A DNA stretch of 64,000 nt from Phytoseiulus persimilis (taxonomy: Eukaryota; Arthropoda; Arachnida; Mesostigmata; Phytoseiidae), in the NCBI GenBank assembly GCA_037576195.1, contig CM075102.1:28764745-28828744 (forward strand). The letters are read 5' to 3'. The notes beneath the pieces were generated by a model. The model was not told the DNA's origin, ran no database searches, and was given only the letters and a program-made list of their open reading frames with translations. Below, in pieces: positions 6,252 to 26,091 of the stretch; within the stretch, counting starts at the first letter, position 1, and each line of letters opens with the position of its first letter. Made by a program: the position numbers and the translations under genes.

Positions 6252-8870
6252 ATTGAAGTAGAAGAAGGCTTTATTTTACTAGAATGGAGAAGGAAACCAT
6301 CAGGAGATTGAACATCCAAGGCGAGTATATACTCGGAGCAAGAATCCTAAGGAGTACAGCGGGATCGTGAGCCTCTTCCCAAGTTTGTTCCGGAGGTCTT
6401 CGAAACAGTAACTCTCGTTAGCAGAGATCCGGAGTCAACTCAATCATCCATCCGGAAGGGAGAGAACGCCTCCAGATCGGCACACTCAGGTCTGTTTCAT
6501 CCACCGACATGCGATTCTAATCTTTTTGAAGCAAAAAGCACTTAAAAAGAGCATTTGAATCGAACCAGAGAGATTTGTTAGAGAGGAATACGGCTCCGAG
6601 CAGCTCTCAATTGATGTTACCGGGACTCGACCGGAGCCAGTGCCGCTCGGACTCGTTCATCCGGCGTTCACAAGAAGTGTCAAGGAGAAACTGAACCCTC
6701 TTATCCTTCCGGATCCGAAGCTACACCATTGGATTGCTTACGAAACACGACAAAACTGGTCCTCGAGAATTTTCGTCGTCGTGAGAATGCAAATAAAATC
6801 CTTGTGACTTCTGAACCCTCGTCTTCTCGGGGCTCACGGGTTACCGTGGTGACTTTGCTCTGATTCATTTGCACTCTGTTTTCGCTACAGATCACCAGCG
6901 CTCCTTCTCTACTTCCGGTTGGGTGCCCATTCGGTCGAACCTCCTCGTAGTTTGAGCTGGTCTTCGAATCCGCTATTTTCTTAATCTTGCGACGATCTCG
7001 AGCGCTGATCTTGCCAGAGTGTGAGACAGGGACGGGGAGATATTGGAAAATTCGGTCAAGTTCGCCCCTGGACGCCCCTTGCTCGTGATTCGCTCAACAG
7101 GCTGAACACGTCACAAGAAAAAATATGGAACGTCATGTACTCGTCGAGCTTGGCAACACGGCCTCGTGAATTTCGCATTTTATCGTCCGCGGCACAGCTC
7201 GAATGATTCTCCGATCTCGTTATGTACAGGGAGCCACGTGCTAGTATTATTAAGAGGGACGCCAACTAATGACCAAGGTTCACAAGGAAGAATGAGTTTG
7301 AAACGGGAGAGGACCAGTTCGAACGGAACGAAAGCGTCATACCGATCTCTGATTCCAAAACGTTCGTGACGTGAACGATGACACTCGAGGTTTCAAGATT
7401 CGGGACTCAAATCAGGTGTCCAAAGCAGACCACGCTCTGACTTCCAAAATCTTCAAAGAATAGGGTATGTTCACAGCCTTACAGAATGTTCTTTTCGGGC
7501 TCGAGAGTACATTTTTGTTCTTCTTTTTTATCCCTTCTGTCATCATATATGGGCGCTCGAAGCACATCGAATGCTTGAGGATTCCAATGAGCTTAAAAAT
7601 CCGGCCAGTTGGTGGTGATCTTTCTGGACCTGATGATCTCGTCTACGCAAGGTTATCGCGGTTCGCTCAATACATAGACGGCCACCACACAGTCGATCCT
7701 TGGTCAACTGTCCGATGGATTGTTCGGGTAGGGGCTAGGGAATCGACTTCTCGGTCCGTCAAAGTATAGGTGACGTTGAACACAGGTCCACGGATTCATC
7801 ATTCGCAGCTCCCGAGCTGAACTGGATTATGGCATTAAAAGTGGATACCTCGTGACCGTCGACAACGAGTCACCTATCCTCGAATGAGGGCCGTGCCAAC
7901 CACTGAGACGAGCGTCCACAAACCAAGAACACGAGCCACCTCATGATTCAATCTTCCGCCACACTTTTCCATGCGAACGGCACCAGGCATGCGCCACCAA
8001 GACACACGAACTCGATAGAGAAATATCAATTCGCCAGTGACCAGCGGCCGCTTTCCTCGTACTTACGTCACCGCACAAACACCTCAGATTTTGGGTATAA
8101 TTGCTATCTATGAACTCAGGTTCTGTATACAGGTGAGAACTGCGCGTTCGACGAAACATCCTCCGAGGAAAGTGCGTATCTGAACCCAGTTGCGTCACAG
8201 AATTCGTCGCGACATCATCTTGATCAGGAAGATCGGGACCGTGGAACATCGGGTTCTGTCCACTCTAGATGCGTGCCCAGATTCAATTGTCAGGGAACGA
8301 TCACGCCTCGTAAGCGTTTGTATTATCATGCGACCCGACTGTTACCCAGAGGAATCGTCTTCTGACACTCAGCTGTCTCGGTTTCATTGGTGTTGACTCA
8401 GAATACCTCAAACTCAGCAGCAAGACTTCCGACTGAAACACGGAGTACCAAGTCTGCCCTGTTTAAGGGGACCCTCACAGCATTAGCAGGAATGATAAGA
8501 TCATTACAGAATTTTCCAGCCGAAGCCCAGTCTAAATCGTCGTTTCAAATCTTCCGTAAGGCTGAACGTTCGACTGGCCTCCGAAAATGCTGTGAGGTCG
8601 AGTTATAATGGAAAAAAATATTCCTCAGTGGGACGGTCGAACACTCACCAAGAGTGCTGCACGGGTAAACGAACAAACGTCGAGTGAATACGAACGGACT
8701 TTGGGACGAGTACGACAGCAATCTTTCTGCCTCACAAGTACAATCCCGACTAATACAAGATGGCCGATCTCACCGCGTCAGAGAGAAGCTTCAATCAGCT
8801 GAAACCTTCTATGGTGCGGATAACGCGCACGGATTCAAATTCGCCACTCGAGTCAGAGAAACTGCCTGCA
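6252..8870. other. gene-poor spacer
   Basis: No gene could be supported. Open frames at 7467-7769 (+) and 7941-8249 (-) lack family motifs or a good splice context. The 5' side presumably contains the Rab7 promoter. A frame at 8684-9277 (+) is spurious because it runs through three different repeat segments. Confidence 0.4.
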
Positions 8871-8874
8871 GGTA

Positions 8875-9083
8875 CACCGAGCCCCCGTTTAGCGGGGGGG
8901 GGGAGCTACGTCCCGTGGAGAAGAGCGCTAAGAGGAACCGCGTTGAGGGGGACAAGTTTTCACCGCTTCGTGGAGAAGCTTTCCAAAGTAGATTGCTTCA
9001 TCTCCTTCAACCGGTCTTCAGGTATCAACTGATAGCTGGACATTGCTTCAAATACGGTCTGTTTTGCACTCAGCTTTCATTCA
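8875..9083 (+). mobile_element. truncated copy of the TA-flanked TIR element (left end)
   Basis: Starts TA|CACCGAGCCCCCGTTTA, the same end as the elements at 18722 and 21716. After about 75 bp it continues with a piece (8950-9080) matching the interior of the 21716 copy around 23275-23400 (shared text aagttttcaccgct and cttcaaccggtctt). It then joins directly to SLC5 intron-7-like sequence. No right terminal repeat is present, so this is a deleted remnant. Confidence 0.65.
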
Positions 9084-10365
9084 GAAAACCGCAGGGAACT
9101 CCAATCGTATCTATTTTGATGCTCTATTGCAATGGTTCTCAACCTCCACTGACCCATCGACCCCTAGGCGACTTCGTTGAAGTTTATGGACTGCCGTCCC
9201 CCCAGGGGTCGACACTTGATCCACCTACGTGGACGCCAAGAAGTATGGTCAAATCCACCCCGGCATCACCTCTGTAAACCGGAGATCGGCCATCGACCCC
9301 CAGGGGTCGATATCGACCACTTTGAGAACCACTGCTCTATTGCATGGTGAGGGCAAGTTCATGGCGTCCGCAGAATCAATCACGGAGAGCCGTGATCATG
9401 CGCTCCAGTGCTGTTCGGGATGTCGGGCCAGACAGGGGAGACCACGTCCAAGAAAATAACGTTCGCCAGCGAGTTGACAGCCGGAGAAATTGAGCTGGGA
9501 ATCGACGGAACTTTATTCCTCTGTAGGATCATCGTAATCCCTTGAAGCGATACACGAGGGAACCCGTTGCGAAAGGATCACGAACTCACTTGAGGGAGGC
9601 CACGAAAATGCCGGATGCGAAGATGCCCGGGAGCGCTCTGTGTTTCGCCGAGACTACCATGACGAAATACGGCAAGAGTTCGTCGTAACTCTTGCTTTGT
9701 TCGGCTATCACGGAATCACAGTCGCTGAAGTACGCGAACGTCATCAGGCCCGTCATAAACGACAGAGCGAAAACTATTGCGAGTTACGGAAGGTTCCCCC
9801 AAACAACCCTGGAAGACGAGGCATTCGAGTTCTCATGCTGCCGAATCAAATGGTCTTCGCTCAATGCCTGCTTTAAGGATTTCGTTTTCGAGACTCACAG
9901 TTTCACCCGCGATTCAGTTGAGACCCTGAAGTATCTCAGGATCATCATCTGGTTCGTCGCGTACAAGGCAAGATTCGTGAAGAATCCCCCGATGACCAAG
10001 CCCTAAACCGAGTGACGGACCGTCGGGTCAAAGCTAGAGCTAGAAAAATCCTACTCAGTACATCGAAGTCATCAAAACCTGTATCGATTGAGCGTACTCA
10101 ATCCCGAGAGAACATTCTGGGCGACTCACTCATCGAAGCGGATTCTCCCACCTGTCCTCGCGACCTCCCACACGTGGGCGAAGCCTCCGACTTCGCTGAA
10201 CCCGAAGGCGACAACGATGACCATCGCGCCTATCATACAGATGGCCTGGAACGAATCCGTGTAGACCACGGCCTTAATCCTTAATACCTCCAACCGATGT
10301 GTGGATCGTGCACACGGTTCCGATCGTGAACACTGCCGTCCAAAGGCCCGTTCCAGTGAATGAGC
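9084..10365 (-). pseudogene. decayed partial SLC5 copy A (exons 7-4)
   Basis: Parallels the intact gene at about 12251-13395: intron 7, exon 7, exon 6, exon 5 and exon 4 in the same order and orientation, highly similar (for example gatgtcgggccagacaggg and atgccggatgcgaagatgcc are shared). The reading frame is broken in several places; for instance the region matching exon 5 has lost its acceptor context, and there is a short insert near 10290. Exons 1-3 and 8-10 are absent, so no transporter can be made. It carries the 205-bp hAT MITE at 9130-9334 in its intron-7 segment. It lacks the 91-bp MITE present in intron 6 of the intact gene. Confidence 0.85.
9130..9334. mobile_element. 205-bp non-autonomous hAT element (MITE)
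   Basis: Ends read CAATGGTTCTCAA and TTGAGAACCACTG, the hAT-type terminal inverted repeat. It is flanked by a perfect 8-bp duplication CTCTATTG (9122-9129 and 9335-9342). The matching place in the intact SLC5 intron (12286-12294) has the target only once. Internal sequence is rich in gacccc/ggggtc palindromes and has no coding capacity. Confidence 0.9.
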
Positions 10366-11268
10366 GGTTAAGCGATGAGTTTCATGGGAATCAGCGCATA
10401 TCTGGCGGCTACTCGTTCCGTAAGCCCGAACCCTTCAACTCATCCAACTCTTAGGGTAGTATTTTTTTCTGGGCTCCATAAGGAATTTCGGGGCAAGCTC
10501 TCTTGTTAGTTCAGCCAACGGGCGATAGGGTCGGGGACCACTATTTTCCGCACGACTGCGTGTTGGTATCCAAAGCGGGGCCAGTGAAATATGAGAGCTC
10601 CTCATTCGGCTTGGGTCGAATTCGAGTCCCCGAGAGCCCGTGAATCCGACGAGTGACTTCCCGATCGACGCAGCGTTCGGATCCACGCACACCTCCCACA
10701 CCGAGAGGGGAGGTATCTACCTCAGAGCTGCAGGGTTCTAACAGTATATAGCGAGCACTTCTAGGGGTTCGCTTGGGCCTTGAAGCTCCGCAAAGTGGAG
10801 AAGTCAGACACGAGGGTCCAGAGCACGGTATTGGCTCCCCAAGCTTGCGACGAACTCTTCGTCCCGGTAGAGACCGAGACTCCGACGTACAGAGCTCTCC
10901 AGGAGCGAACTCGGAGAGCAAGTCGCCTTCCCGGAAGATGGGTGAACCCGGCGGGTCCATTCAAGGGGCTCAACTGATTTGTTCGGTTGGATAAGGAGTT
11001 GTGTGTAGAGTCATCATCACAATATGTACACAAATCACAATAATAGGTCGTAGATGCCTTTCGTTCAATAACTCCTTCATTCGAAGTTCCTCATACGATA
11101 GGTCAGTTATACGACAAGTTTTTACACATTGGGAGTTCTTTATCTCCCAGACTTTGAGGTGTCATAGGTCGGACTCCGGGAAAATTCAAGTTAGGAATCA
11201 GTTCAACGATGTCTGGACTTGGGGCCGAATAAGCGAGCATTTATTCATCGGGTTCATCCACATGCCGT
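10366..11268. repeat. spacer with a segment of the duplicated block (10780-10985)
   Basis: Sequence at 10780-10985 is related to 17690-17770 and 20685-20780: shared agctccgc.aagtgg, gacgtacagagctctccag-like and ggggctcaac text. This makes a third, diverged trace of the segmental duplication. No gene was recognised in the rest. Confidence 0.55.
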
Positions 11269-14198
11269 TCACAGATGTATTTGAACGCATTCGAGGGACA
11301 GGCACCCAACGAAGCGGCATACTTCGTCAAGAGGCTCCGATGTCATTCCTGAAGGCCGGCTGCCGGAGCCAGCCGATATGAATGACATCTTGTGACTCTC
11401 TTCGACTGTTTGGGGTCCCGTTTCAGCTTCCTCCTGTGTAAGAAGTTGTTGTGTCAGAATTTCATCACTGAACACGCGCTTCCGACGCTCTTCAATGCCA
11501 TTGGGCGAGGCTTCGACCTCTATGCTCCCTCAAGAAGTTTGAGGAGCTCGTGAAATTTCCTGGACGGACGTTAAACTTACGTAATCAGCCCCGAGATGGA
11601 AAGCCAACCTGTCCCGGGTTCCTTTTGACAGCCACCAGCAGATCGAATCCATAGGCCTTGCCGCCAGCTTCGGGTTCATTTTCCGTGGGTTGTTGCACCC
11701 GGTCAAGAATCCCGAAGGGATGGCGACCAGGAATACGATCGCAACGGAAATGGCTGAGTACCAGATATAGGATATCTGGTAGATAGAGAAGGTCTCCGGT
11801 TCCACCCACTCTTGCGGAGTCGGTGGAACGAAGCTCTGCATTCCCATCACAGCCATGTACGTGCGCTCGCATCCCCCGACCGACACTGGTAGCTGCGGGT
11901 GGACAGGGACGGGAATGATCACGGATCTCAGGTTGATCCACAACGAGATCGCAAGTGAAACGAGGAAGCTGAGTCGCGCACCTGGGGAGAGAATTCCTGG
12001 TTGAATTTACCTCCCTACTCCGTTTCGTTCGAGGAACGCGTGTTCAAGAAGTTCGAATGACGTGAACAAACCTTTCGCGTTGACGAACGGGAGCAGGACG
12101 CCGACGGACAAGACTCCGAGGAAGGGTCCCCCAATTCCCGCGATCACGGCGTTCGTCGCCTGGAGCACGTTGCCCATGTACTCGGCGGCGAGCACGAGTA
12201 CCATCGAGAGAAGGCCGCAGACAACCCCTGGAGAGAGAGTGACTGACTTTTGAGAAAACCGTAGTGAACTCTCATTGTAACCATTTCGATGCTGTATTGA
12301 ATGGCGAGAGCGAGTTTATGGTGATCGCAGAATCAACTCACCGAGAGCCGTGATGATGCGCGCTCCAGTGCTGTTCGGGATGTCGGGCCAGACGGGGGAG
12401 ATCACGTCCACGAAAATCACGTTCGCCAGCGAGTTGACAGCCGAAGAGATCGAGCTGGAAATCGACGGAACTTTATTCCTCTGTTGGATGATGCTTATCG
12501 AGGAATACTGGATGCGAGAGGATCACGAGTAGGGCTCGCGAAAATCCGCGAGTCCGACGAGTCCAAGGAATAGGGACTCACCGGACTCGCGAGTCCGAGG
12601 CCAAGTCTGCGACCCCTATTCACGAGCTTACCTCAGAGAGGCCGCGAAAATGCCGGATGCGAAGATGCCCGGGAGCGCTCTGTGTTTCCCCAAGACAACC
12701 ATAACGAAATACGGCAAGAGTTCGTCGTAACTCTGGATTTGTTCGGTTATCACGGGGTCACAGTCGCTGAAGTATGCGAAGGTCATCAGGCCCGAGATAC
12801 ACGACAGGGCGAAAATGATTGCGAGGTACGGAAGGTTCCCCCAAACAACCCTGGAACGACGAGGCAGTCGAGTTTTCATGCTTCCGAATCGAATGGTCTC
12901 TGCTCAATGCCTGTTTTGAGGATATCGTTTTCGAGACTCACAGTTTCGCACGTGTTTCAGTTGAGACCGTGAAGTATCTCAGGACCATCATCTGGTTCGT
13001 TGCGTACGAGGCAAGATTCGTGAAGAATCCTCCGATGACCAAGCCCCAAACCGAGTGGCGGACCGTCGGGTCAAAGCTGGAGCTAGGAAAATCCAAGTCA
13101 GTACATCGAAGTCATCAAAACCTGTATCGATTGAGCGTACTCAATCCCGAGAGAACATTCTGGGCTACTCACTCATCGAAGCGGATTCTTCCACCTGTCC
13201 TCGCGACCTCCCACGCGTGGGCGAAGCCTCCGACTTCGCTGAACCCGAAGGCGACAACGATGACCATCGCGCCTATCATCCAGATGGCCTGGAACGAGTC
13301 CGTGTAGACCACGGCCTTAATTCCTCCAACCGATGTGTAGATCGTGCACACGGTTCCGATCGTGAACACTGCCGTCCAAAGGCCCATTCCAGTGACTGAA
13401 AGAATGGTGCGACAACTTAGAACTAGGACAATATTGAGATTAGCAGGTTCGCATATTCGAATACTGGGAACGCTTTCACGGCGAGATACTCACCGCTGGA
13501 AAGCGCAACGGCCGGAGCAAACAGTTGGATGGCAATGTAGATCATCATTTGGAGGAAATAGAAGAAGACCGTGATTCGACGGATCGTCCGATCGAAGCGG
13601 AGCTCCAGGTACTGTAGAAGAATCAATACTCAAACCCTATTCCCTCTCCACCTCACTGTCGATGAGACCGAAGAGAAATTTCTGATCATCCGATAGTTTC
13701 TTTGTTGACCTACGAACCTCGAAAACCGTGAGCGCCCCACTGTTGTAGAATACCGGGACAAACAGGTGGGCGGTCACCGGTATGACGAAGACATACGACA
13801 GCATCGTATAGAGATACATCGTACCGTGCTGGTGTATCTCCGCCGCGTTCCCTGCGAATCAGAGCACTCTCTACTTGAACAAAAAAAAGGGAACGGATTC
13901 ACCTTAGCACGATTTCCCGCGGGAAGTCCACAGCGTACTCACCGAGTACGTAGGAGGCGCAGATGAATGACGCCATCAATGAGGTGCTAACCAGCACCGG
14001 TGGTAACTGGCCATCCGCGGCCAGCAGCTGTCGAATGGTGGTTTGGGGTCCACCATTGAACGCCCCATAGAGCCCGATAGCTCCGGAGGTAACTATCATC
14101 GCTATGAAGACGAAGTAGTCCAGGTAGGTGAACCTGGCTACGAGCTCCTGGGCGTTCAGGATGGCGAACTCCATTCCTGGGTTGAACAGCTGGGCCAT
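11269..14198 (-). CDS. sodium/solute symporter, SLC5 family (monocarboxylate/multivitamin type)
   Basis: Plasma-membrane symporter that uses the sodium gradient to import an organic anion. Ten exons: 13943-14198, 13718-13851, 13494-13611, 13173-13395, 12942-13082, 12632-12850, 12342-12454, 12072-12227, 11581-11981, 11269-11517. All phases agree, giving 669 residues, slightly longer than many SLC5A6/8/12 members. It starts MAQLFNPGMEFAIL, then TM1 (YLDYFVFIAMIVTSG). Later family stretches include TSVGGIKAVVYTDSFQ, ASYATNQMMVLRYF, YFSDCDP, LLPYFVMVVLG and SSISSAVNSLANV, and the C-terminal tail is polar. Members of this subgroup carry biotin, pantothenate, lactate or iodide; the substrate here cannot be told. 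Decayed partial copies of the same gene flank it. A 91-bp MITE sits in intron 6. Confidence 0.93.
12530..12620. mobile_element. 91-bp palindromic MITE in SLC5 intron 6
   Basis: Ends TAGGGCTCGCG and (reverse complement) about TAGGGGTCGCAG; flanked by a 6-bp repeat CACGAG (12524-12529 and 12621-12626). It contains internal inverted pieces such as actcgcgagtccg. Both decayed copies A and B2 lack it at the matching place, so it looks like an insertion into the intact gene. Its right edge lies about 11 bp from the intron's 5' splice site, and the downstream flanking repeat overlaps the donor hexamer. Confidence 0.7.
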
Positions 14199-15306
14199 TT
14201 CGAGGATGTGTCTGTTTTTCGGAGATGGAATGCACGTGAACTGAAGTCTTCAGTCTGCTTCGAAGCGCTCTGAATCTTTGAGGATTCCTTCGAACGAAAG
14301 TCCTAACGGTGCTCTGTTCGTACTTCCTCTCAAAAACCCAACAGAAACTTAGACTCGAGTGAAGTCAATTGAACACTCTTCGTCAATCAGTGAGTAGAAC
14401 TCTGCGACTCGAAGGCATCAGGTCGTCTTTTTATATGCGCCGAAGGAGAGGAGGGTCCAAGCTCCTCGCATCCTCCGGACATGCGTCTGCGGTTTCTTTG
14501 AAACTTTGATGAAAAGATTGCCTGCAGAACTCTGTGATTCCGCCCGCCAGCGCTGTTTCGATTCGATCGTCGATGGGATTCGCGACTCGAGGAATCCAAT
14601 GAAATCATTCTCTAGAGTTTGCACGAACCGGAGTGCAGAACTAGAACGTCCTGCAGTTCATCCGAGGTTTCAAGCGAGAAACCGCGATTTGAACCCCGCA
14701 AGTCTGAAGAAATGAAGTTCAATGATCCCAAAGATTCCGAACATCTGAAAACAGGACGTCGATCAGACGGGTATGTGGGTCAGAACCGGACCTGCAACCG
14801 GACTTGGAAAGAGACTTCCAAAGTAACCGCCGCGAGTTACCCGCTCATTCCTCCCGATATGCATTTGTTGGTCCATCATTTTACTTGAAAACTTCTCTTC
14901 TGGTCCGACTATCACGGAGGTGAAGCGGTGAGACCTCGGAAAGTTCTCGAATCTGGGGTGAACTCGGAAGCGGAACTCCGCTCCCGGGAACGCGAGCTTG
15001 GGCCCGGAGTCTACATGCAGCGAGCGGACCCGGAAGCGCCGGAGAACTCGTCCAGCCTTGAGGACTCCTTCGCAGCAAAGTTCGTTCCTGGGGTACCATC
15101 TTGATCTCTCCCAGAGAGGAAAAGAGCACGAAAACGAGTCACGCTGATTGACCCCGAAGTTCGAGCTCCGTATTCATCAGGGAAGACTTCGGGACATCCA
15201 GAATCGAGAGATCGGCAGTGGCCGAACCGCGGAGAATCAGGACGGGGCGTCTTTCAATAAGTTCCAGGCCCAGAGTGACGGGGGTGGAAACTTCGAGAAA
15301 CAAACC
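14199..15306. other. upstream region of the SLC5 gene, no supported gene
   Basis: Contains the likely SLC5 promoter on its left side. A frame at 14881-15129 (-) is open, but I find no family resemblance or confident splice partners. Confidence 0.4.
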
Positions 15307-15724
15307 TTACTCCGAGCTCTCGCCACTGACACTGACATGACTGCTCTGAGGGCCGGAAGGAACGCAGACGAGAGCAGATGAGAAGGATTCCGGGTCGAGA
15401 TTCCTCAGGACGTTCGGACCCAAGAGGGCCTGAGAAATCTTCTCGAGGTCCTCGTGGTCGGACGCTCGACACGCCTGGCTCCAAACGCCCATTCGAAAAA
15501 AAGCGGGACCCGTCGCGAGGAATCTGACGAAGTTATTCGGTAATGTCGACGAAGCGCTCGACAACTCACGAAACGTGGCCCAACGACACAGGGTCCGAAA
15601 GTTTTGACGTCACCCGTGGATCTGAGCTTCTTGTTCGAACACCGTCCGGTACTTCGAGAGGACCAGAACGGAGAGGCAAACCTTCCGAGCATCTGAATGC
15701 AGCCGCCAGAGAAGCCAGGGACAT
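15307..15724 (-). CDS. hypothetical two-exon protein, 123 residues
   Basis: Exons 15570-15724 and 15307-15523, joined across a 46-nt GT-AG intron. The start is MSLASLAAAFRCSEGLP and the end is a TAA after VSGESSE. The central part (RASDHEDLEKISQALLGPN) has a natural protein-like composition. No family was recognised. The start codon is the first ATG in the open frame; an upstream exon is possible. Lies 1.1 kb upstream of the SLC5 gene on the same strand. Confidence 0.35.
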
Positions 15725-16515
15725 AGATGCATTGTTGGACGGAATCATTATCATGATTCTCATTGTGATTATGACCCCAAAGTAAAACCCCAAAAACAGT
15801 ATTTTAGGGATGGTTGAAATTTGGTTGGGGGTTCTCGGGAACGCTGAGCACGATGCAGATGATAGTCCAACTCGGTCTATTCATAATGACGCGTTCGTTG
15901 AGTATGCCAGATTAATGACCGTGATCTCAGCGTCGTCATCCGACTTTCTGAGAAACCAAGATTCAGGGGCGTTTCAAACTTGGTCGGGGGTTTATGGGAT
16001 TGGTGATGACGATGCTGGTCTTGGTTCTCCGCGATCCATCCGTCCTGATACGGAGATCGTTGATCACACATGATGATTCAAGGAGTGATGAAGAACTACG
16101 ATCACGTGGACTGTAGCCATATACGAAGTCACTCATTCGCTCTTGCCTGCCTCGCAAATGCTGCTCCACTCCCGAGCAGCATGGGAAATCAGCGAAGAAC
16201 GCAATCAAAGAATGATTACCAGGCGCGTCGTGTTGGAACGGGCCTGCGAAGACGCGGGTACAACCCGACACACACGTCTGTCAGAGCCGTTGGAGTCTCT
16301 CGAACATGCTTACATGGAGCGTAACACGTCGGCTCTGGGTTCTGGCAAACGAGCTCAGATGAGAAGGAAGCCGTCGACGCACTTGTTTCAAGGGTGCTCC
16401 GCATGCTCCCCTCTAGTAGTCAGGCTCCTCTATACTGTCATGAAGTTGAAAGAACCATACAAATCCAGTCATTCACCCGGTCAAGGACGACTACTAAAAC
16501 TTCAACGTAGAGCCC
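15725..16515. repeat. spacer with a degenerate two-copy repeat
   Basis: Two related stretches, near 15820-15880 (ttggttgggggttctcggga) and 15975-16035 (ttggtcgggggtttatggga), suggest an old local duplication of about 155 bp. A tgattatga-rich patch lies at 15745-15780. No gene was identified. Confidence 0.35.
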
Positions 16516-16809
16516 ATGGAGGTGTCAGCAGCATCATCGGCGTCAGCAACAGGGCCCTCCTTAATCACGCCGTCAGACCCCTCAGACAACCTCATGTGGC
16601 TGTATCTTCACAACCCGGACACCGAGCTCACCATGCTGCTCCGTTGCGAGTCCATCTCAGCCCTCTTCAGTGAATTTTACGGGGCACCGCCGTTTAGCGC
16701 GGAGGTTGGGAGATTATTTTCCTACGCAGCCATGATGACCGCGCCAGAATTGAACTGGGTTAGCGATGCGAATTTCGAACAACGAGTACTGCTCCGCAAT
16801 GCCGATTGA
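16516..16809 (+). pseudogene. hAT transposase C-terminal dimerisation domain remnant
   Basis: The 97-codon open frame ends with a hAT C-terminal dimerisation motif: APPFSAEVGRLFSYAAMM followed by the Leu-Arg block (SDANFEQRVLLRN). The family consensus is P-S-S-x-x-x-E-R-x-F-S, then LSDENFE and a hydrophobic LLLR stretch. Most of the transposase (BED zinc finger, catalytic Asp/Asp/Glu region) is absent. The next 110 bp, in another frame, also stay open to about 16939. It could be the decayed end of a hAT element or, less likely, a co-opted fragment. Confidence 0.65.
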
Positions 16810-16924
16810 GGATAACGAGTTTCTCATCAGGATGGCTGGATCAAGAGAAACTAACACCTGCATCGTGCTCAGCGACCCCGAAAACCAAGCCTACGTTTCA
16901 ACCATCCTCGAAATCCTTTATCTC

Positions 16925-17045
16925 AAAGGGATTCCATGATTAGTGAGAATATGATTACGGCATAATCACAGGAGTCTATGATTATGATTATGATCACAAC
17001 AGTGATCATGAATTTGTCGATTCTGTGATTCAATCATAATTGTGG
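16925..17045. repeat. atgattat-rich palindromic patch
   Basis: Repeated tgattatg words and a small perfect hairpin (ATGATCAC 16990-16997, loop AACA, GTGATCAT 17002-17009). It lies just past the hAT transposase remnant, a position where hAT elements carry subterminal repeats; that link is inference. Confidence 0.4.
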
Positions 17046-17689
17046 TTTTGCCAAACACTGTTTCGATGATCGAAATGAGTATTCGGTGCAGAGAAACCTA
17101 CAATACACACGCCGATTCCCGGATCGGGCTTAGGTGAAACTTCTGGATACGATGAGCGGGGATACCTCCGACATTCTGTAGAGATGCTGCTTGGTCCGCG
17201 CCATCGTGGAGCGAGAACCAACCCGCGTGAGGACTTCGGGAGCGCGACCGGGAGAGAATCCAACGGTACGGACCAGGTGGGTTAGAGCCTTCGCACACGC
17301 TCTAATGAAGGGCAAAAGCTCCTAGAACAGAACGGTCTCCTTCACCGAAGGCAAGGCCCTCCGCAGATGATGGACTTCCCATCCGATATGCGCCCCTTTC
17401 TCCAGGGCCAGTGGCGATCCTTGATCATTGACCCGACTCTCGGCAGACACCGAAGAAAGCAGGTAATGAGAAAATTAAGATACTTGCAGACGATTGGAGA
17501 ACTCTGCTTCAAGTCCTGCGTGTCGGAAGCTCACCGTAGTCGCGAAATGTAAGTTTTCGGAAAAAGTCAGAGAAACCTTCAACTGATCTGGTAACGAACA
17601 ATCGACTTCCGCGCTGCCCTCCCACAACCGGAGAACGGTCCGGAACGCCGGGAAAGTGATTTTACACTCCTTGGGGTTTGCTTGGGCTC
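17046..17689. other. spacer, no supported gene
   Basis: Overlapping minus-strand frames at 17030-17315 are open, but none carries a recognisable domain. Nothing else is seen. Confidence 0.35.
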
Positions 17690-18720
17690 CTTGGAGCTCC
17701 GCGAAGTGGAAAAGTCGAACGATGGGTAAACCTGGAGTGTCAATTCCAGGAGCTCAACGGAGTCTCGTCGAAATCAGAGATCAAAATCGACAGACCTGAA
17801 GTGATAGTTGAGCACGCGGCGGATTGGAATCATCTTTACCTCTGAATGGCTCATCGTCGAACGGTTTGAACGGAAGGTTGGATCAGACCGTCTCTGATAG
17901 GATGATGCTGCTAAGTGCAAACGCTAAACGAGCAGCCACTACACTAACGCTGTCTTCATGAGAACGTGCACGTCGGGGAAGCAGCGTTACGAACTGCTAT
18001 CCAGCATCTGCTTCCTCAGTCAACCTGCTAGATGCTCAGTCGACGCTACGAAATCCAGTCTCAGCGTTCCCTGCCTTTCCACCCCGTTCTTCTCTAATGT
18101 GCTGTCTTTGATTCGTTAGATGAGAGAGTTCGCGAATTTCCTCGAAAATCGGATGAAGAATGGAAGGTTCGGTGCAATCGCAGCTCTGTCCGTTGTCTGC
18201 GTCGGCGACAGCATCAAGGTCACCGCGGAAACTTAAATGTGTTCCGAAACTGTATGCTAATTTCGGAGCAGGAGAAGAACTTACTCCTCACTTGAGCAAC
18301 CTTCTGAGCTTGGAATCGAGGCGAAAATGCAGATATCTCAACACCCGCGTTTGAGGCACTAATATGAGGAACGAGAAAATCATGCCCTGGATGCCCGATT
18401 TTTAAGCAGGTCGATCGATAATTAGGGTTCGGGAACAGTTCGGCTGATGGAGCGTTCGCAGTGATTTCTCATTCATTGGAGTGAAGAAAACAAGGTGCCT
18501 CACATGAGGGACCCTCCGCCTCGCTCCCTGGAGTCACGAAGAGGCTCCACTCACAATGTCTTCGATTGTTCGACGACGATACTGAGCTTGCTTAGATGGC
18601 CGGTTGGTCGGTGCACACGGTTCGGTTCGTGAACACTGCCGTCCAAAGGCCCACTGAAAGAATCGTGCGAAATCTGAGAACTAGGACAATATTGAGAAGG
18701 GCAGGTTAGCATATTCAGAG
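17690..18720. repeat. segmental duplication, unit 1
   Basis: About 1 kb closely matching 20735-21715 in the same orientation: for example gagcacgcggcggatt, cagcatctgcttcctcagtc, ctgatggagcgttcgcag and gaagaggct.cactcacaat. Both units end with the SLC5 intron-3/exon-4 fragment, immediately followed by the same TIR element. The content of the unit before the SLC5 piece is unidentified and shows no intact gene. Confidence 0.85.
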
Positions 18721-19303
18721 ACACCGAGCCCCCGTTTAACGCGAGGTTTACATGCCATGGAAAAGAGCGCCAAGCGAAACCGCGTCTAGCGGGACCGCTC
18801 CAACATGGTTGGTATAGGGATACGGTAATCACATCGAGATAACGTGGAGAAATATGCATTTATTAGGTATGAAAATCTCATCTTAGTCTACTGGAATCAC
18901 AGTTAGGAATATCTATTCGCACATGTGTAGTTTTAGCTTGAGTGGCCGATGAATCTTCTTGAGGGCTCCGTGGAAGTGAATCTGTCGGGTCCGGCTCACT
19001 TCCATTCCATGCAGCCTAGGGATCGCTCTCCTGCAATCGATCCATGACATGTCTGAACGTTTTGCGAACGCGCTGTGCCCCCCACCCCCTCCTCCAGAGC
19101 GTCCGTCAGCGTAATGCTCACTCGCAAGTTGACTGGACAGTGAACAGCCTTAGAGCGGAACCGCGTTAAACGAGGGTTTGGTGTACTAAACACGTTTTCA
19201 CGGCGAGATTCTCAACGCTGGAAAGCGAGACGACCGGTGTAGAATGCTGGGACAAACAGCTGGGCGGTCTCCGGTACGACGAAGAGAAACGACAGCATCG
19301 TAT
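18611..19303 (-). pseudogene. decayed SLC5 copy B1 (parts of exons 4, 3, 2)
   Basis: 18611-18720 matches the intact gene at about 13347-13457 (gtgaacactgccgtccaaag). 19184-19303 matches 13462 to 13808 with an internal deletion (cacggcgaga..ctcaacgctgg, then gacgacagcatcg-like text). The TIR element 18722-19183 interrupts it exactly where the intact intron 3 reads gaatactggg. It is non-functional: only fragments of three exons remain. Confidence 0.8.
18722..19183. mobile_element. 462-bp TIR element, TA target (pogo/Tigger-like MITE)
   Basis: Left end CACCGAGCCCCCGTTTAACG; right end, reversed, CACCAAACCCTCGTTTAACG. The right side keeps the TA of the target (19184-19185). On the left the TA has decayed to GA. 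The intact SLC5 intron 3 has one TA at 13462-13463 in the same flanking sequence, which gives a direct pre-insertion reference. TA duplication and a C-A-rich end with CGTTTAACG suggest the Tc1/mariner superfamily, pogo/Tigger side (inference). No transposase remains. Confidence 0.85.
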
Positions 19304-19597
19304 TGAGATTTGTCTACTTTCATCGACATCCCTAGATTCCTCTGATGGTTCTTTCCATTTATGTGATCGAGGAAGAGGATTGAATTTTTGACAATGCAAT
19401 CACAAACATCACAGTAGTAACTACCCGATTGCGACTGCTCGGCCGTTCTCGAGATGGGAATAGTTTTCCCCAAGCGAGAGCCGGGATCCGCTTCGTACTG
19501 CCGCGGTTCAAGAAGTTCTTGTTGGGGTTTCTGTTCGCGGGAGCAAGATGGCCCGAGGCTTGGTTCGCGCCAATCTTCGTCAGATAAGGAACGAATC
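19304..19597 (-). pseudogene. ZMAT2: ZMAT2-like zinc finger fragment inserted in SLC5 debris
   Basis: Reading minus, the frame gives YYCDVCDCIVKNSILFLDHI and GKNHQRNLGMSMKVDKS, a close match to the U1-type C2H2 zinc finger of the splicing factor ZMAT2/Snu23 (C-x-x-C...H-x5-H spacing, and the family's NGK-x-HQRNLGMSM run). RLGKTIPISRT upstream matches the segment before the finger. Roughly 95 codons are present, with no N-terminus or C-terminal helix region. The fragment lies between two SLC5-derived pieces, and its frame fuses into them on both sides, producing a chimeric open frame 19198-19725. Probably a retrocopied or transduced fragment. Confidence 0.8.
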
Positions 19598-20690
19598 ACG
19601 GGAGAAGGCCACAGACAGCCCCTAGAGAGTGACTGACCTTTGAGAAAACCGTACTGAACTCCAATCGTATTGATTTTGATATCTATTGGATGGCGAGAGC
19701 GAGTCCATGGCGTCCGCAGAATCAATCACGGAGAGCCGTGATCATGCGCTCCAGTGCTGTTCGGGATGTCGGGCCAGACGGGGGAGAACACGTCCACGAA
19801 AATTACGTTCGCCAGCGAGTTGACAGCCGAAGAGAATGAGCTGGAAATCGAGGGAACTTCATTCCTCTGTAGGATTATCGTCATTCCTTGAAGCGAAACA
19901 CGAGCAAAACCAGTTGTGAAAGGATCACGAGCTCACCCGAGGGAGGCCACGAAAATGCCGGATGCGAAGATGCCCGGGAGCGCGCTTTGTTTTAATAGAT
20001 CGAGCTAGGAAGGCACTTCAGCACAAGATTAGGCCAGACGAAGTTAAGCTTTCATTACCGGAATCAGGTCCCTTTTATATGAATCTTGAAAACGATGTCC
20101 AGATGGTCATGCGCAGATCCGGACTTCTAACATGTTTCCCCAAGACAACCATGACGAAATACGGCAAGAGTGCGTCGTAATTCTGGATTTGTTCGGTTAT
20201 CACGCGGTAACAGTCGCTTAAGTACGCGAACGTCATCAGGCCTGAGATACACGACAGGGCGAAAATGATTGCGAGGTACGGAAGGTTCCCCCAAACAACG
20301 GTGGAAGACGAGGCATTCGATTTTTCATGCTGCCGAATCTATGAAACGCGATTATGAGGTCTTTGCTCAATGCCTGTTCTTTGAGATATGGTTTTTGAGA
20401 CTCACAGTTTCGCCCGTGTTCCAGTTCAGACCGTGAAGTTTCTGAGGACCATCATCTGGTCCGTCGCGTACGAGGCAAGATTCGTGATGAATCCTCCGAT
20501 GACCGGGCCCCAAACCGAGTGGCGGACCGTCGGGTCAGAGCTGGAGCTAGAAAAATCCAAGTCAGTACATCGAAGTCATCAAAACCTGTATCGATTGAGC
20601 GTACTTAATCCCGAGAGAACATTCTGGTCTACTCCCTCATCGAAGCGGATTCTTCCGCCTTCCTTCGCGACCTCCCGAGGCTCCGACGGA
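19598..20690 (-). pseudogene. decayed SLC5 copy B2 (exon 8 edge to exon 4)
   Basis: Parallels 12208-13200 of the intact gene: intron 7, exon 7, intron 6, exon 6, exon 5 and the start of exon 4. The intron-6 MITE is absent. Exon 6 is interrupted by about 145 bp of foreign sequence (19990-20134). Other small changes break the frame. It sits downstream of copy B1 in an order that does not match the gene, so the two pieces are not one simple duplicate. Confidence 0.85.
19990..20134 (+). other. coding-like foreign insert within SLC5 pseudo-exon 6
   Basis: At the junction the parental text gctctgtgtttcccc is split into gctttg and tttcccc. The inserted segment is open on the plus strand and reads as natural protein (DEVKLSLPESGPFYMNLEND, then VQMVMRRSGLLT). 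No family was recognised. Like the ZMAT2 piece, it looks like a fragment of another gene captured in the decayed copy. Confidence 0.5.
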
Positions 20691-20734
20691 CAGAGCTCTC
20701 CAGACGCGAACTCGATGAGGAAGTCGCTTTCCCG

Positions 20735-21715
20735 AACGATGGGTAAGTCAGGAGGGCCAATTCCAGGGGCTCAACGGAGTCTCGTCGAAATCAGAGGTCA
20801 AAATCGACAGACTTGAAGTGATACTTGAGCACGCGGCGGATTGAAACCATCTTTACCTCTGAATGGCTCATCGTCGAACAGTTTGAACGAAAGGTTGGAC
20901 CAGACCATGTCTGTTGGGATGATGCTGCTAAGTGCGAGCGCCAAACGAGCAGCCACGAGCAGATGCTGGATAGCAGCGTTACGAACTGCTATCCAGCATC
21001 TGCTTCCTCAGTCAACCTGCTAGATGCTCAGTCGATGCTACGAAATCCAGTCTCAGCGTTCCCTGCCTTTCCATCCCGTTCTTCTCTAATGTGCTGTCTT
21101 TGGTTCTCGAGATGAGAGAGTTTGCGCCATAGGCAAACATTCCTAGGATTTCCTCGAAAATCGGATGAAGAATGGGAGGTTCGGTGTATTCGGAGCTCTA
21201 TCCGTTGTCCGCGTCGGCGACAGCATTTAGGTCACCACGGAAACTTTGATGTGTTCCGATACTTTATGCTACTTTTGGAGCAGGAGAAGAACTTTCCCCT
21301 CATTCGAGCAACTTTCTGTGCTTGGAATCAAGGCGGAAATCTAGATATCTCAACACCCGCGTCTGAGGCACTAATATGAGGGACGAGAAAATCATGCCCT
21401 GGACGCCCGATTTTTAAGCGGGTCGATTGATAATTAGGGCTCGGGGAGAGTTCGGCTGATGGAGCGTTCGCAGTGATTTCTCATTCATTGGAGTGGAGAA
21501 AACAAGGCTCCTCACGTGAGGGACTCTTGGCGTCGCTCCCTGGAGTCACGAAGAGGCTTCACTCACAATGTCCTCGATTGTTGGACGACAATACTGAACT
21601 TTCTGAGATGGTGTCGTCAGGGTTCGGAGGGCAACTACGGCCGGTTGGTCGGTGTTTACGGTTCCGATCGTGAACACTGCCAATATTGAGATAAGCAGGT
21701 TCGCATATTCGAATA
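20735..21715. repeat. segmental duplication, unit 2
   Basis: Partner of 17690-18720 (see there). Differences include a 19-bp-arm palindrome at 20958-21004, a roughly 40-bp extra segment near 21610-21650, and a deletion that joins gtgaacactgcc directly to aatattgag within the SLC5 piece. Ends in gcatattcgaaTA, followed by the TIR element. Confidence 0.85.
20958..21004. repeat. perfect 19-bp inverted repeat, 9-nt loop
   Basis: AGCAGATGCTGGATAGCAG (20958-20976), loop CGTTACGAA, then its exact reverse complement (20986-21004). Unit 1 of the segmental duplication has the right arm and loop (17985-18010 region) but a different left arm, so the left arm in unit 2 is a secondary, templated copy. Confidence 0.85.
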
Positions 21716-23708
21716 CACCGAGCCCCCGTTTAACGCGAGGTTTACGTACCATGGAAAAGAGCGCATGGAGAGAGCATGGAAAGAGTGGGATACGGGAATC
21801 ACATCGAGATAACGTGGGGAACAATTCATTCATTGGGTATGAAAATCTCATCTCATTTCGAGACGCTCTTGTTCGACGCAACGGCTCCCCCACCGGCAGC
21901 ACAAGTCGAACTGCCGCTCACATAGGATGAATGGCTCATCAACTCTCAGCGGTCAATAGAAGAGATACAAGGCATCCTGAAGACACTCCCAAACGGAACG
22001 CAGGACCAGATGGCTTATGTTACGAACACTGGAGGGAATCTGAGCTCCATGATAGAACCCATTACGAGGCTCTTCAACAAGGTCAGGAGGACCTTTTGTG
22101 CAAACCATGTGTGCCAAGGGAGAATTCCAAACTCATGGCGCAAGGCGAAACTCACGCTACTCTTCAAGGGAAAACCAGGAGACCCTGACGACAAAATGGA
22201 CCTAAACAGAGGAATTGCGAGTGATCCAACGCTGAAAAAAGTGTTCTTCAAATGAGTCATCAGACGCATAGAATACCTCATGGAGAATTACCAGCCGCCG
22301 GAGCAGATCGGGATAGACGGGGCATCGGCACACAGGACGCCATTCATGTGGTCATGACTGAGATTAACTTGAGCCGCCCTGGAGAACACACGTTCGCGGT
22401 ATTGATTGATTGCCAGAAAGCGTTCGATTTGGCCCCTCGTCAAGGCATGATAAACGCATTCAGAAGAGCCGAAGTCAGCGGACGATTGCTCAGGGTGATA
22501 GAAAGCTTCTACAACCAAGACTCTCTAACAGTGAATGTTGGCGGAGGAGTGACAGTTGATATCCTACAGAACAGGGGCACCCCGCAGGGGGACCAATAGA
22601 GCTGGCGTCACCTAATATGGCATCACCTAACTCCGGGAAATTCCATCACGCTGGAGAAATGTTACTGCTCATACATGAAGAGGGTCCTCAGAATCTCCAA
22701 AAGCAGTCCTAACAGATATGTGTATATACTAGCGGGCATTGACCCACCTTTCGTTGAAATCTTGAGTCTGCACGTGAAGGCGACATCGACGACAGCACAC
22801 CAGGTTTTCATGGACGAGTAGAAGCAAAAAGTAGCGGAGACGAGAGAAATCCTGGAGGGTGACCCCATCATGGAACGCAGAGAAAGTTGGAGCAAGCCGA
22901 TGTTCCCAAAAAGACACTTATTCACACGTTACCTGGTGCACGGCTACCACCACAAGCTCTTCATCACCCCCGGACGCCAGACACCAAACGACGAATGTAT
23001 ATGCACGTTTTGTGGAGAAGGATGTCCCCGCTATCATGCTTTGTTATGTGAATTGAGACCGAGACTCGAAGAACTCGGTGAACTAAGTTCTATTATGTCG
23101 TCTACATGCGATAAATTATCTCAGTCCACCAAAAGCTCATCTCAGTGTGCTTGAATCACAGATAGGAATATCTTTTCGCGCATGTAGTTTCAGCTTGAAT
23201 GGCCGTTGAATCTTCTTGAAGGCTCCGTGGAAGTGGATCTGTCGGGTCCGGCTCACTTCCACTTCATGGCAAGTTTTCACCGCTTTGTGGAGAATCTTTC
23301 TAAAGTAGACTGCTTCATCTCCTTCAACCGGTCTTCGAGCATCAACTGACAGAGGGACATTGCATCAAATACGGTTTGTTTTGCTCTCAGCCTTCATTCA
23401 GCCGTGGGATCGCTCTCCTGCAATCGATCCATGACATGTCTAAGCGTCTTCGAAATTCCTTCCAAGAGAGCTGTCTCCAACTGGCGCTCTGACGCCCCCT
23501 TCCCCCAGGGATTGCAAGACGTGCCTTTGTCAGAAGATGCGGCTTCATCTTCAATTTCGATGAGCGATCGATCAGAGAGAATGCAAAGACGAGGCCAGCT
23601 ATGTTTCTATGATGTCCTCCAGAGCATCCGTCAGCGCAATGCTCACTCGCGAGTTAAGTGGACAGAAAACAGCAATAGAGCGGAACCGCGTTCAACGGGG
23701 GTTTGGTG
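21716..23708. mobile_element. second TA-flanked TIR element, carrying a nested LINE
   Basis: Same ends as the 462-bp element: TA|CACCGAGCCCCCGTTTAACG at the left; at the right, CGTTCAACGGGGGTTTGGTG followed by TA. Non-nested parts match 18722-19183 (tgaaaatctcatct, gtggatctgtcgggtccggc, atcgctctcctgcaatcgat). It inserted at the same SLC5 intron-3 site, so both copies descend from one insertion followed by segmental duplication. It contains the LINE fragment 21856-23135, an internal piece absent from unit 1 (about 23273-23400), and extra sequence at 23450-23610. Confidence 0.8.
21856..23135 (+). mobile_element. 5'-truncated non-LTR retrotransposon (LINE), reverse transcriptase to C-terminal zinc motif
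   Basis: Flanked by a 9-bp duplication CTCATCTCA (21847-21855 and 23136-23144) inside the TIR element, which gives exact ends. Reverse transcriptase blocks are readable in three frames: RNAGPDGLCYEHW, NSWRKAKLTLLFKGKPGD, NRGIASDPTLKKVF, AVLIDCQKAFDLAPRQG and NRGTPQGDQ. The C-terminal part has a Cys/His motif, CTFCGEGCPRYHALLC. Frame changes and stops (for example the TAG after NRGTPQGDQ) show it is dead. There is no poly(A) tail. The RT style and the C-terminal Cys/His motif suggest a clade with a restriction-like endonuclease (R2/NeSL/R4 type), but the clade is not certain. The catalytic FADD box region seems deleted. Confidence 0.85.
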
Positions 23709-23841
23709 TATGTTGTTTTTTAGACGCTTTGTTTCCCTTCCCTCGCTTGGGAAGGCGAAGGAGCACTCATACGATGGAGTGCAGTCCACGGTGTTGATCT
23801 GCGCCAGTGATGTGGCCATGTAGGCTCTCCGGAAACCAAGA

Positions 23842-24198
23842 CTATTTTACACTGGTTTTGAGAAGCCCAACGAATGACGCTAGTTTGCTTCGCAACGAGA
23901 GCCGGTATAGTTTTCGGAGGGAACTACACTCCCTGTGCCCCTGGGTATGTGACTGCTCCGCGATGACCATAGCAGAGAGATTCGATTCGGCGAAGGAGTG
24001 GTCGAGGCAAGAGTAGCAGAGATCTAGAGTATCGAGAATTTTCCTGTCTAGTACAGTCGAATACAGATCGGAATTCTCTATCTCTCTTGAACTGATCGAG
24101 AGGCCTCTGACACGCTCACCCAGGTCGCGGCTTGGGAACTCGAGCTCCTCACATTTGAGGATCTGATCAATTGAGGCCGAGCTCAGTTTATGTTCCAA
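23842..24198 (-). CDS. hypothetical single-exon protein, 118 residues
   Basis: Uninterrupted from ATG at 24198 (MEHKLSSASIDQILKCEE) to TAG. Codon usage looks natural, and the composition is mixed helical/polar (REIENSDLYSTVLDRKILD). No signal peptide, membrane segment or known motif. Divergent to the ionotropic receptor start 110 bp away. It may be a real small gene, or an exon of a larger one that was lost when the neighbouring elements inserted. Confidence 0.35.
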   Translation of the reverse strand: MEHKLSSASIDQILKCEELEFPSRDLGERVRGLSISSREIENSDLYSTVLDRKILDTLDLCYSCLDHSFAESNLSAMVIAEQSHTQGHRECSSLRKLYRLSLRSKLASFVGLLKTSVK

Positions 24199-24306
24199 CT
24201 ACGAAGTAAAGAAATGCTTCGATGTGGCTGCAATTAGGTGTCCTGGGCTCAGACTTGCTAGCTGGTATTTGCATAACCAATGTTCGGTGGGCAATCATGA
24301 ATTCGA

Positions 24307-26091
24307 ATGAGGGCTCGGCAGATTCGATTCCCATTTTTGAGACAAGAATCAATTAAAGCCAATACTCTGATCCTAGTTCGGGAAGATTCATCCCTCGACT
24401 GTGAGCGAGATCGCTCACGAAGCAATTGGGTCGATTCCTCGGGAGAGACCCTAAAAAAGACCGCTGAACGTTTCGAGCTTCAACTTTCGCTTCGGGCTCC
24501 ATACCGGGAGCGACGTCGGCTCTGGAGATCCCTTGACTCAGAGTCAGACGCAACCATGGTTCGTTCAAAAGTGGACGCAGTCTTGATGCTGCTGGCGCCT
24601 TACTCATGGCAAGTTATCGATCCAATGACGGGTGAAAAATCGCTCCGAGGCTGCACGATCACACCTCTATTGAGTGTTCTGGCGTCGCTCAATATCAGCT
24701 CGGATATTCAAATTCTCAAAAATGTCGGCTGGGGTAACCGCTTGCCCAACGGAACCTACACCGGAATGCAGCTCATGGCATACGAAGGTATGGCAGCCCA
24801 TGTACGAATATGGTAACAGCCCAATCGTCTATCAGCCTCTCTCCCTCATGAGGTAGGGAGCCTTTGCATTGCCTGACCGCTCGTTTTTTTTTTCATTTGG
24901 CGCCCAGGAAAAACCGATATAGCGATTGGCCCGTATTTCCCAAACCTACTGTCTGTCACAGAAATGGAAGCTGGCTTCCCCCACTATCGAACCAAAATCG
25001 TCATTCTCAGCGGCTGCCGAGCGCTCTACATGACTGAACTATCGACCGCGATTTTTGATCTGTACGTCACTCTAGCGCTTTTACTTTGCTGTCTGATACT
25101 GCCTTTGATTCTGCTGCTTGTGCAACACATCGATAATCAGCAGACCTCGATACTAGACGCATTCGGAACAGTTGTAGCGGCGCTTCTACAGGAACCGGTA
25201 GACCTCCGGAATTTTGCCAGCACATGCTCTCGTCAGATGATTGTATCTTGGGGCGCGGGGTGCTTCATCATCATGCAAGTGTTTTCTGGAGTTCTCCGGT
25301 CGCATACAGCCGTTAAAACGCGCGTAGAGCTGATTGATAGCTTCGAACAAGTGCTACGGGATCCCTCGATCGAGGTGGCGGCGTGGGCCGATACTCCGAC
25401 GCTGCTCGTGTTGAAGGAGAGACGGGGCGCATGGGTGCAGGACCTCATAGATCGGATTCAGAGGATGAACACGTTCCTAGAGAAAATGGAGGAGATCTTC
25501 GAAGAGGAGTGGATCAATAAGATACTTGATCGAAAAGCAGTTTTCGTCCAAGAACCGGACACGATGCTCGCGAGTGGAGCTCGCTTATGTGACAAGTGCA
25601 AAGGCTTTTTCCACATTAGTGAGAGAGACAATCTGGAGATAGAAGTCGTTTGGTATTACTCTCCAAAACTGGATGTCGAGACGCGCCGAGCTATCTCGCT
25701 CAGGATGAAGTGGACGTTCGAAGCTGGAGTCAAGTGGATCAAGGATAGAGAAATGTATCCAGTCGCCCCGAAGTGTTTCACGGTGGAGGTTTTTAAGCTC
25801 AAGGACGTGAAAGTTGGTGATGCAGCGAATTTCACTATTGAACAGCTCCTTCCATATTTCTTTCTTCTTTTCTTTGGACATATGATATCGACTGGCGCCT
25901 TTATGTCCGAATGTATCTGGAATTCCGCCTGGCAGCGGTACAGCGGGCGTCAGAAACTGTACAGACGTATGAAGCACCTGAAGCGTCAAAACTTGGATTC
26001 AAGACCGCGTGACCCTCGGGGATATGGGCGAGCTAGACTTGAATGGCAAGCTGTGCAATATGCTGCCAATAGGAGACGAAAGCGAGTTTGA
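24307..26091 (+). CDS. ionotropic receptor (divergent iGluR family), two exons
   Basis: Ligand-gated cation channel of the arthropod IR type, used in chemosensation. Exons 24307-24787 and 24908-26091 join in phase to about 554 residues. The ligand-binding S1 half reads APYSWQV...NGTYTGMQL, then TDIAIGPYFPN across the intron. M1 is YVTLALLLCCLILPLILLLV. The pore loop region contains VVAALLQEPVDL. M3 is SWGAGCFIIMQVFSGVLRSH, a strong departure from the SYTANLAAF of glutamate receptors, as usual for IRs. The second ligand lobe has DTPTLLVLKERRGAW and a Cys pair (LCDKCKGFF). M4 is LLPYFFLLFFGHMISTG. No signal peptide is seen at the chosen ATG, so the true 5' end may be an unrecognised exon or a later ATG (24556). 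Confidence 0.85.

Follow-up and report, generated by a model that had tools for sequence, protein, structure and literature searches.

Partial ZMAT2 pseudogenes have been described in mammals, covering exons 4-6 in guinea pig, exons 2 and 3 in platypus and exon 6 in rat, and in the accessible text of that paper the authors call the origin of the partial copies unclear (PMC6995233). Filler DNA is found at repaired chromosome breaks, for example as numts in primates, according to the available part of PMC2567098. In the window, by which we mean the whole stretch of 64,000 nucleotides analysed, a 288-base internal piece of ZMAT2 (Snu23) coding sequence lies at 19306..19593 on the minus strand, and it comprises 96 codons with a complete C2H2 zinc finger. 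This capture is real but ordinary. The piece is a genuine captured scrap of a gene, but judged from its sequence it looks like neutral debris rather than a new gene.

The ZMAT2 piece and its SLC5 flanks

The initial annotation had placed a recognisable piece of ZMAT2 at 19304-19597, between two SLC5-derived pieces. Both statements held. The homology, delimited by blastn to the ZMAT2 copy on another contig (C87), phmmer to PDB, and Pfam, extends over 19306-19593. Residues 65-146 of the open frame running through the locus matched residues 42-123 of 'Zinc finger matrin-type protein 2' (PDB 5o9z_N, a chain which we take to be human; phmmer, E=2.3e-29), and the zinc finger scored above the Pfam cut-offs for PF12171, PF06220 and PF12874. 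By these scores, the similarity to ZMAT2 is far beyond chance. The piece aligns with residues 32-130 of the C87 copy; it lacks the 31 codons that precede them and everything after residue 130, about the last third. At the DNA level 242 of the 297 aligned columns were identical, with 9 gap columns (blastn), and identity was 81-84%. Both cysteines and both histidines of the finger are kept, the 96 codons are free of stops, and the one length difference from the C87 copy (9 bases) preserves the frame.

Self-comparison of window positions 7001-26000 revealed a mosaic of SLC5 copies, in which a more complete copy at 11776..14306 (minus strand) provided the reference frames and introns. Its conceptual exons matched PF00474 (E=9.8e-17) and the sodium-dependent multivitamin transporter in PDB (E=1.7e-49). 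The SLC5 identity of the flanks rests on the matches of this 11.8-14.3 kb copy to PF00474 and to multivitamin and monocarboxylate transporters in PDB; Pfam search of 17501-21003 in all three minus frames (E up to 0.05) detected the zinc finger only and no SLC5. Transmembrane segment (TM) numbers below are our own reading. The region 11530-14306 (minus strand) as a whole has the appearance of a fairly complete SLC5 copy resembling both transporter types, with decayed relatives nearby and another relative on contig C1 near 4,576,000.

The upstream flank, at 19599..19725 on the minus strand, consists of an SLC5 intron and the stub of a TM10-region exon, as recognised by alignment with window positions 12205-12336 and by tblastx to the C1 relative. 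About 35 codons of it are intron, in which the donor is altered and the acceptor AG is kept near 19622; the join after removal of the intron aligns gap-free to the transporter structure. Positions 19599-19878 were 87% identical to 12205-12492, and the in-frame part 19599-19725 was 81% identical. Further upstream, this truncated copy continues with its next exon at 19745..19872 (minus strand), which reads ..SSAVNSLANVIFVDVFSPVWPDIPNSTGA (ending ..PNSTGA) and was found by tblastx to the C1 relative and by blastn to the paralogue within 12205-12492. On the minus strand, this copy thus runs from exon 19745-19872 through an intron and the TM10-region stub to a break at about 19599.

The downstream flank, at 19238..19309 on the minus strand, is a truncated SLC5 TM2 exon whose own frame reads NTMLSFLFVVPETAQLFVPAFYTG, identified by tblastx and by its match to window positions 13744-13815 (89%). 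The copy that follows the ZMAT2 piece begins in the middle of this exon, from 19309 downwards, in the same orientation as the upstream copy. In the reference copy, the TM2 exon is located about 1.4 kb upstream of the TM10 exon. At our locus the TM10 side is upstream and the TM2 side downstream, the reverse of the order in a single gene, indicating that the ZMAT2 piece sits at the join of two truncated copies. Inspection of the alignments showed five junction bases at 19594..19598 (minus strand) that are neither ZMAT2 nor clearly SLC5, and, at the other end, the motif ATCT common to the end of the ZMAT2 piece and the downstream SLC5 flank, forming a four-base overlap.

The C87 copy and the divergence of the piece

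The assembly (180,977,233 bases in 127 contigs) was searched at the DNA level with the open frame. Seven places were found: the frame itself, one on C87, and five that matched the flanks only, four of them within the window and one on C1. The place on C87 covers the ZMAT2 part of the frame (query 109-396) with 81% identity, and it belongs to the one full-length ZMAT2 that the searches recovered from the assembly, at about 42600-43200 of C87. The coding sequence of this copy is intronless and its frame is broken at two places. A conceptual protein, joined over one frameshift, was used as the query of a protein search (E up to 1; all 7 candidates scored), which returned four rows: two on C87, the piece in the window itself, and a weak hit on C1 (E 0.5, 36%). 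The DNA and protein searches, with the best candidates scored, yielded no ZMAT2 pieces beyond the C87 copy and the one in the window. A search of the genome with PF12171 gave 11 matches among the best 150 of 367 candidates scored; the ORF on C1 that contains the strongest of these is, in our reading, unlike ZMAT2.

The C87 conceptual protein matched PDB ZMAT2 over 184 residues (E 2.6e-55), which suggests that this copy was under constraint until recently. Its two frameshifts may be either assembly errors or, less likely, the loss of a conserved spliceosomal gene. The same search tool recovered a gene lying in four pieces on contig C57, so an intron-bearing ZMAT2 should not be missed merely for its introns. 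The initial annotation had suggested that the parent gene be found and the fragment checked for missing introns. The only full-length copy found is itself intronless, so that a piece without introns does not discriminate and the processed or unprocessed class is not assignable from their absence.

Contamination as the source of C87 was disfavoured, its GC content being 50.2% against 50.7% for the window. A 296-residue ORF on C87, presumably resembling ATAD5/RFC1, had no other match in the genome at E up to 0.001, with all 8 candidates scored. Given this ORF without a second match and the similar GC content, C87 was read as probably unplaced native sequence. Two related genes, 55-70% identical by piece, are located at C87:40276-41316 and C57:13370-15163, the former as a single open frame and the latter in at least four pieces; we take both to resemble V-ATPase subunit d. 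C87 and C57 are both small, with lengths of exactly 75,000 and 50,000 bases, round sizes that we assume, from the habit of such tools, to reflect debris of Hi-C scaffold correction.

Over the 96 aligned codons, the piece differs from the C87 copy at 47 of 288 bases and 26 of 96 residues, and the base differences are distributed as 13, 10 and 24 over the three codon positions. Pairwise estimates, computed with an experimental Biopython module, were dN 0.139, dS 0.371 and dN/dS 0.37 by NG86, and dN 0.162, dS 0.247 and dN/dS 0.66 by YN00. Among 74 residues aligned to PDB ZMAT2, the C87 copy agreed at 59 and the piece at 47. Twenty of the differences between piece and C87 fall within these residues, and the PDB-like residue is present only in C87 in 14 cases, only in the piece in 2 and in neither in 4, suggesting that most of the assignable changes fall on the piece.

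These values were compared with simulations (800 per setting) in which either a neutral piece was paired with a constrained parent, under three splits of the substitutions, or both copies were constrained. Under the neutral settings the mean number of changed residues was 26.1, 24.0 and 21.7 (central 95%: 21-32, 18-30 and 16-27), against 26 observed, and no stop appeared in 21%, 26% and 34% of the runs. When only neutral runs with a comparable total of changes are considered, the share that stayed free of stops and also had no more than 26 changed residues was 12%, 20% and 36%. With both copies constrained, in a strict setting in which 5% of replacements were kept, the mean was 6.5 changed residues (central 95%: 2-11). 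The 24 third-position differences slightly exceed the neutral means (19.5-22.4) and fall short of the constrained mean (31.1). The amino-acid divergence thus appears to fit neutral decay of the piece, at limited power; a partial or moderate constraint on it is conceivable, since the constrained setting was strict and the third-position count falls between the two models.

The open frame 19198-19725

The frame of 176 codons that had been reported to run through all three pieces on the minus strand was confirmed at 19198..19725, as 175 codons plus the stop, and it starts with TTG, not ATG, after a TGA. ATG occurs only at codons 133 and 135 of 175, both past the finger, so ATG-initiated translation of the frame would omit the zinc finger. 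SLC5 intron accounts for about 35 of the 44 codons preceding the ZMAT2 piece. Neither SLC5 exon piece is read in its own frame: the open frame translates the upstream stub as RGCLWPSP, where the SLC5 frame gives GAVCGLLP and then a TGA at the junction, and the downstream exon is read as QYDAVVSLRRTGDRP instead of the TM2 sequence given above. When placed at random 20,000 times in window positions 7001-25000, open flanks totalling at least 79 codons were obtained in 24% of placements. First-order Markov sequences of the size of the window contained on average 5.7 stop-to-stop frames of at least 175 codons (10 runs), and the real window contains 19, probable true genes included. The best explanation is that the open frame is an accident, in which no stop has yet arisen in the ZMAT2 frame inherited with the piece and the flanks are open by chance.

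The initial annotation had raised the prospect of a nascent chimeric gene. In such a gene, a transcript from the SLC5 side would be spliced and the ZMAT2 finger translated in a new protein. The zinc ligands are kept, the piece is stop-free, a single frame crosses all three pieces, and an SLC5 acceptor AG has been inherited upstream of the piece. Against these stand the position of the first ATG past the finger, the intronic or out-of-frame reading of the SLC5 parts, the TGA that the stub meets in its own frame at the junction, the difference between the ZMAT2 and SLC5 frames, the accumulation of replacements as under neutral simulation, and an openness of the flanks that is not unusual. This proposal was not supported, and we consider it very unlikely. 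A somewhat fainter chance would be that the finger is exonised, in a spliced transcript from the upstream SLC5 copy or from elsewhere, through the acceptor near 19622 and in the ZMAT2 frame; if true, exonisation would give a small protein in which a spliceosomal finger is followed by a frame-shifted SLC5 tail. As a new gene, the ZMAT2/SLC5 frame is unsupported so far. It also serves as a caution that a long open frame over recognisable pieces can consist of an inherited intron, an exon in the wrong frame and a scrap not yet broken.

Proposed origin of the insertion and comparison with known systems

We propose that a local group of SLC5 copies suffered a break or replication fault, that one copy's 3'-truncated end was joined to the 5'-truncated start of its neighbour, and that the 288-base internal ZMAT2 piece was copied in as filler at this join, after which it would have decayed without detectable constraint. 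We assign a probability of roughly 0.88 to this reading, a repair-templated insertion at an SLC5 breakpoint followed by neutral drift with an accidental frame. The sequences themselves establish the homology, the boundaries of the piece, the identity of its flanks, the frame mismatch, the missing ATG and the pattern of divergence; the DNA-repair or template-switch route, the join and insertion as one event, and the lack of function are what we infer. A donor-like copy is present elsewhere, on C87, and the insertion lies where two truncated SLC5 copies meet. The piece is internal to the coding sequence and runs straight into the SLC5 TM2 exon, and neither the 3' coding end nor a poly-A was present at the piece. 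The breakpoint setting, the four-base overlap and the lack of both a poly-A and an enclosing inverted repeat are consistent with a patch made by DNA repair or template switching, the ATCT overlap being weak evidence of mechanism. An assembly artefact was rejected, since near-identical sequence would be expected from a false join and the piece is 16-19% diverged from C87.

A truncated retrocopy, that is, ZMAT2 mRNA reverse-transcribed and inserted, for example by a non-LTR element, would also account for a piece without introns, and ZMAT2 pseudogenes, mostly retrocopies, are present in about half of 18 mammals according to the accessible text of PMC6995233. A reverse-transcriptase-like scrap lies 2.7 kb away. 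The missing introns say nothing, however, when the only full-length copy found is intronless as well; the 3' coding end and the poly-A tail are both missing, and both ends of the piece are at SLC5 breakpoints, so we regard a retrocopy as improbable. A literature search found no paper carrying both terms, ZMAT2 and retrocopy. A piece of cDNA might conceivably have served as filler during repair. The capture had earlier been set beside active elements. The scrap, at 22252-22599 on the plus strand, matched PF00078 below the Pfam cut-off (E 1.3e-4; 22.1 bits against 29.6), and we found no link between it and the capture. Uptake of a ZMAT2 gene piece by a DNA transposon or Helitron might be suspected from a short inverted-repeat stretch nearby, 18721-19184. 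This stretch, however, stops 121 bases short of the piece, with SLC5-matching sequence between, no inverted repeat found within 18600-20400 encloses the piece, and C87 is the only other place where the piece was found. We regard such a capture as the least probable of the origins considered.

The ends of this stretch, 18721-18743 and 19162-19184 (23 bases, 87% complementary), are the sole inverted repeat found in 18600-20400, and no tandem repeats were found in 17000-24000. The 464-base stretch appears to interrupt an SLC5 copy, 18717-19191 having no counterpart between 13458 and 13470, and parts of it recur at about 8874-8953, 21715-21853 and 23131-23710. It is possibly a small non-autonomous transposon.

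Patching during repair or template switching, the preferred reading, makes the locus a worked case of how a gene scrap lodges at the breakpoint of a decaying gene cluster. Compared with ZMAT2 (Snu23) itself, a spliceosomal zinc-finger protein, the piece retains 96 codons with the full finger but lacks the start and the end of the coding sequence, and 26 of its 96 aligned residues differ from C87. As in the chimeric and partial gene duplicates of PMC3449122, to the extent of its available text, parts of two unrelated genes are joined, but there is no sign here of the join making a translated product. The mammalian pseudogenes, as given in the accessible part of PMC6995233, are likewise partial ZMAT2 scraps, whereas ours is an internal coding stretch at an SLC5-SLC5 breakpoint. 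With the filler DNA described in the available part of PMC2567098, the locus would share unrelated DNA sealing a break and possibly microhomology or added bases at the junctions; unlike numt filler, the donor here resembles a nuclear gene, and the event is old, with a divergence of 16-19%.
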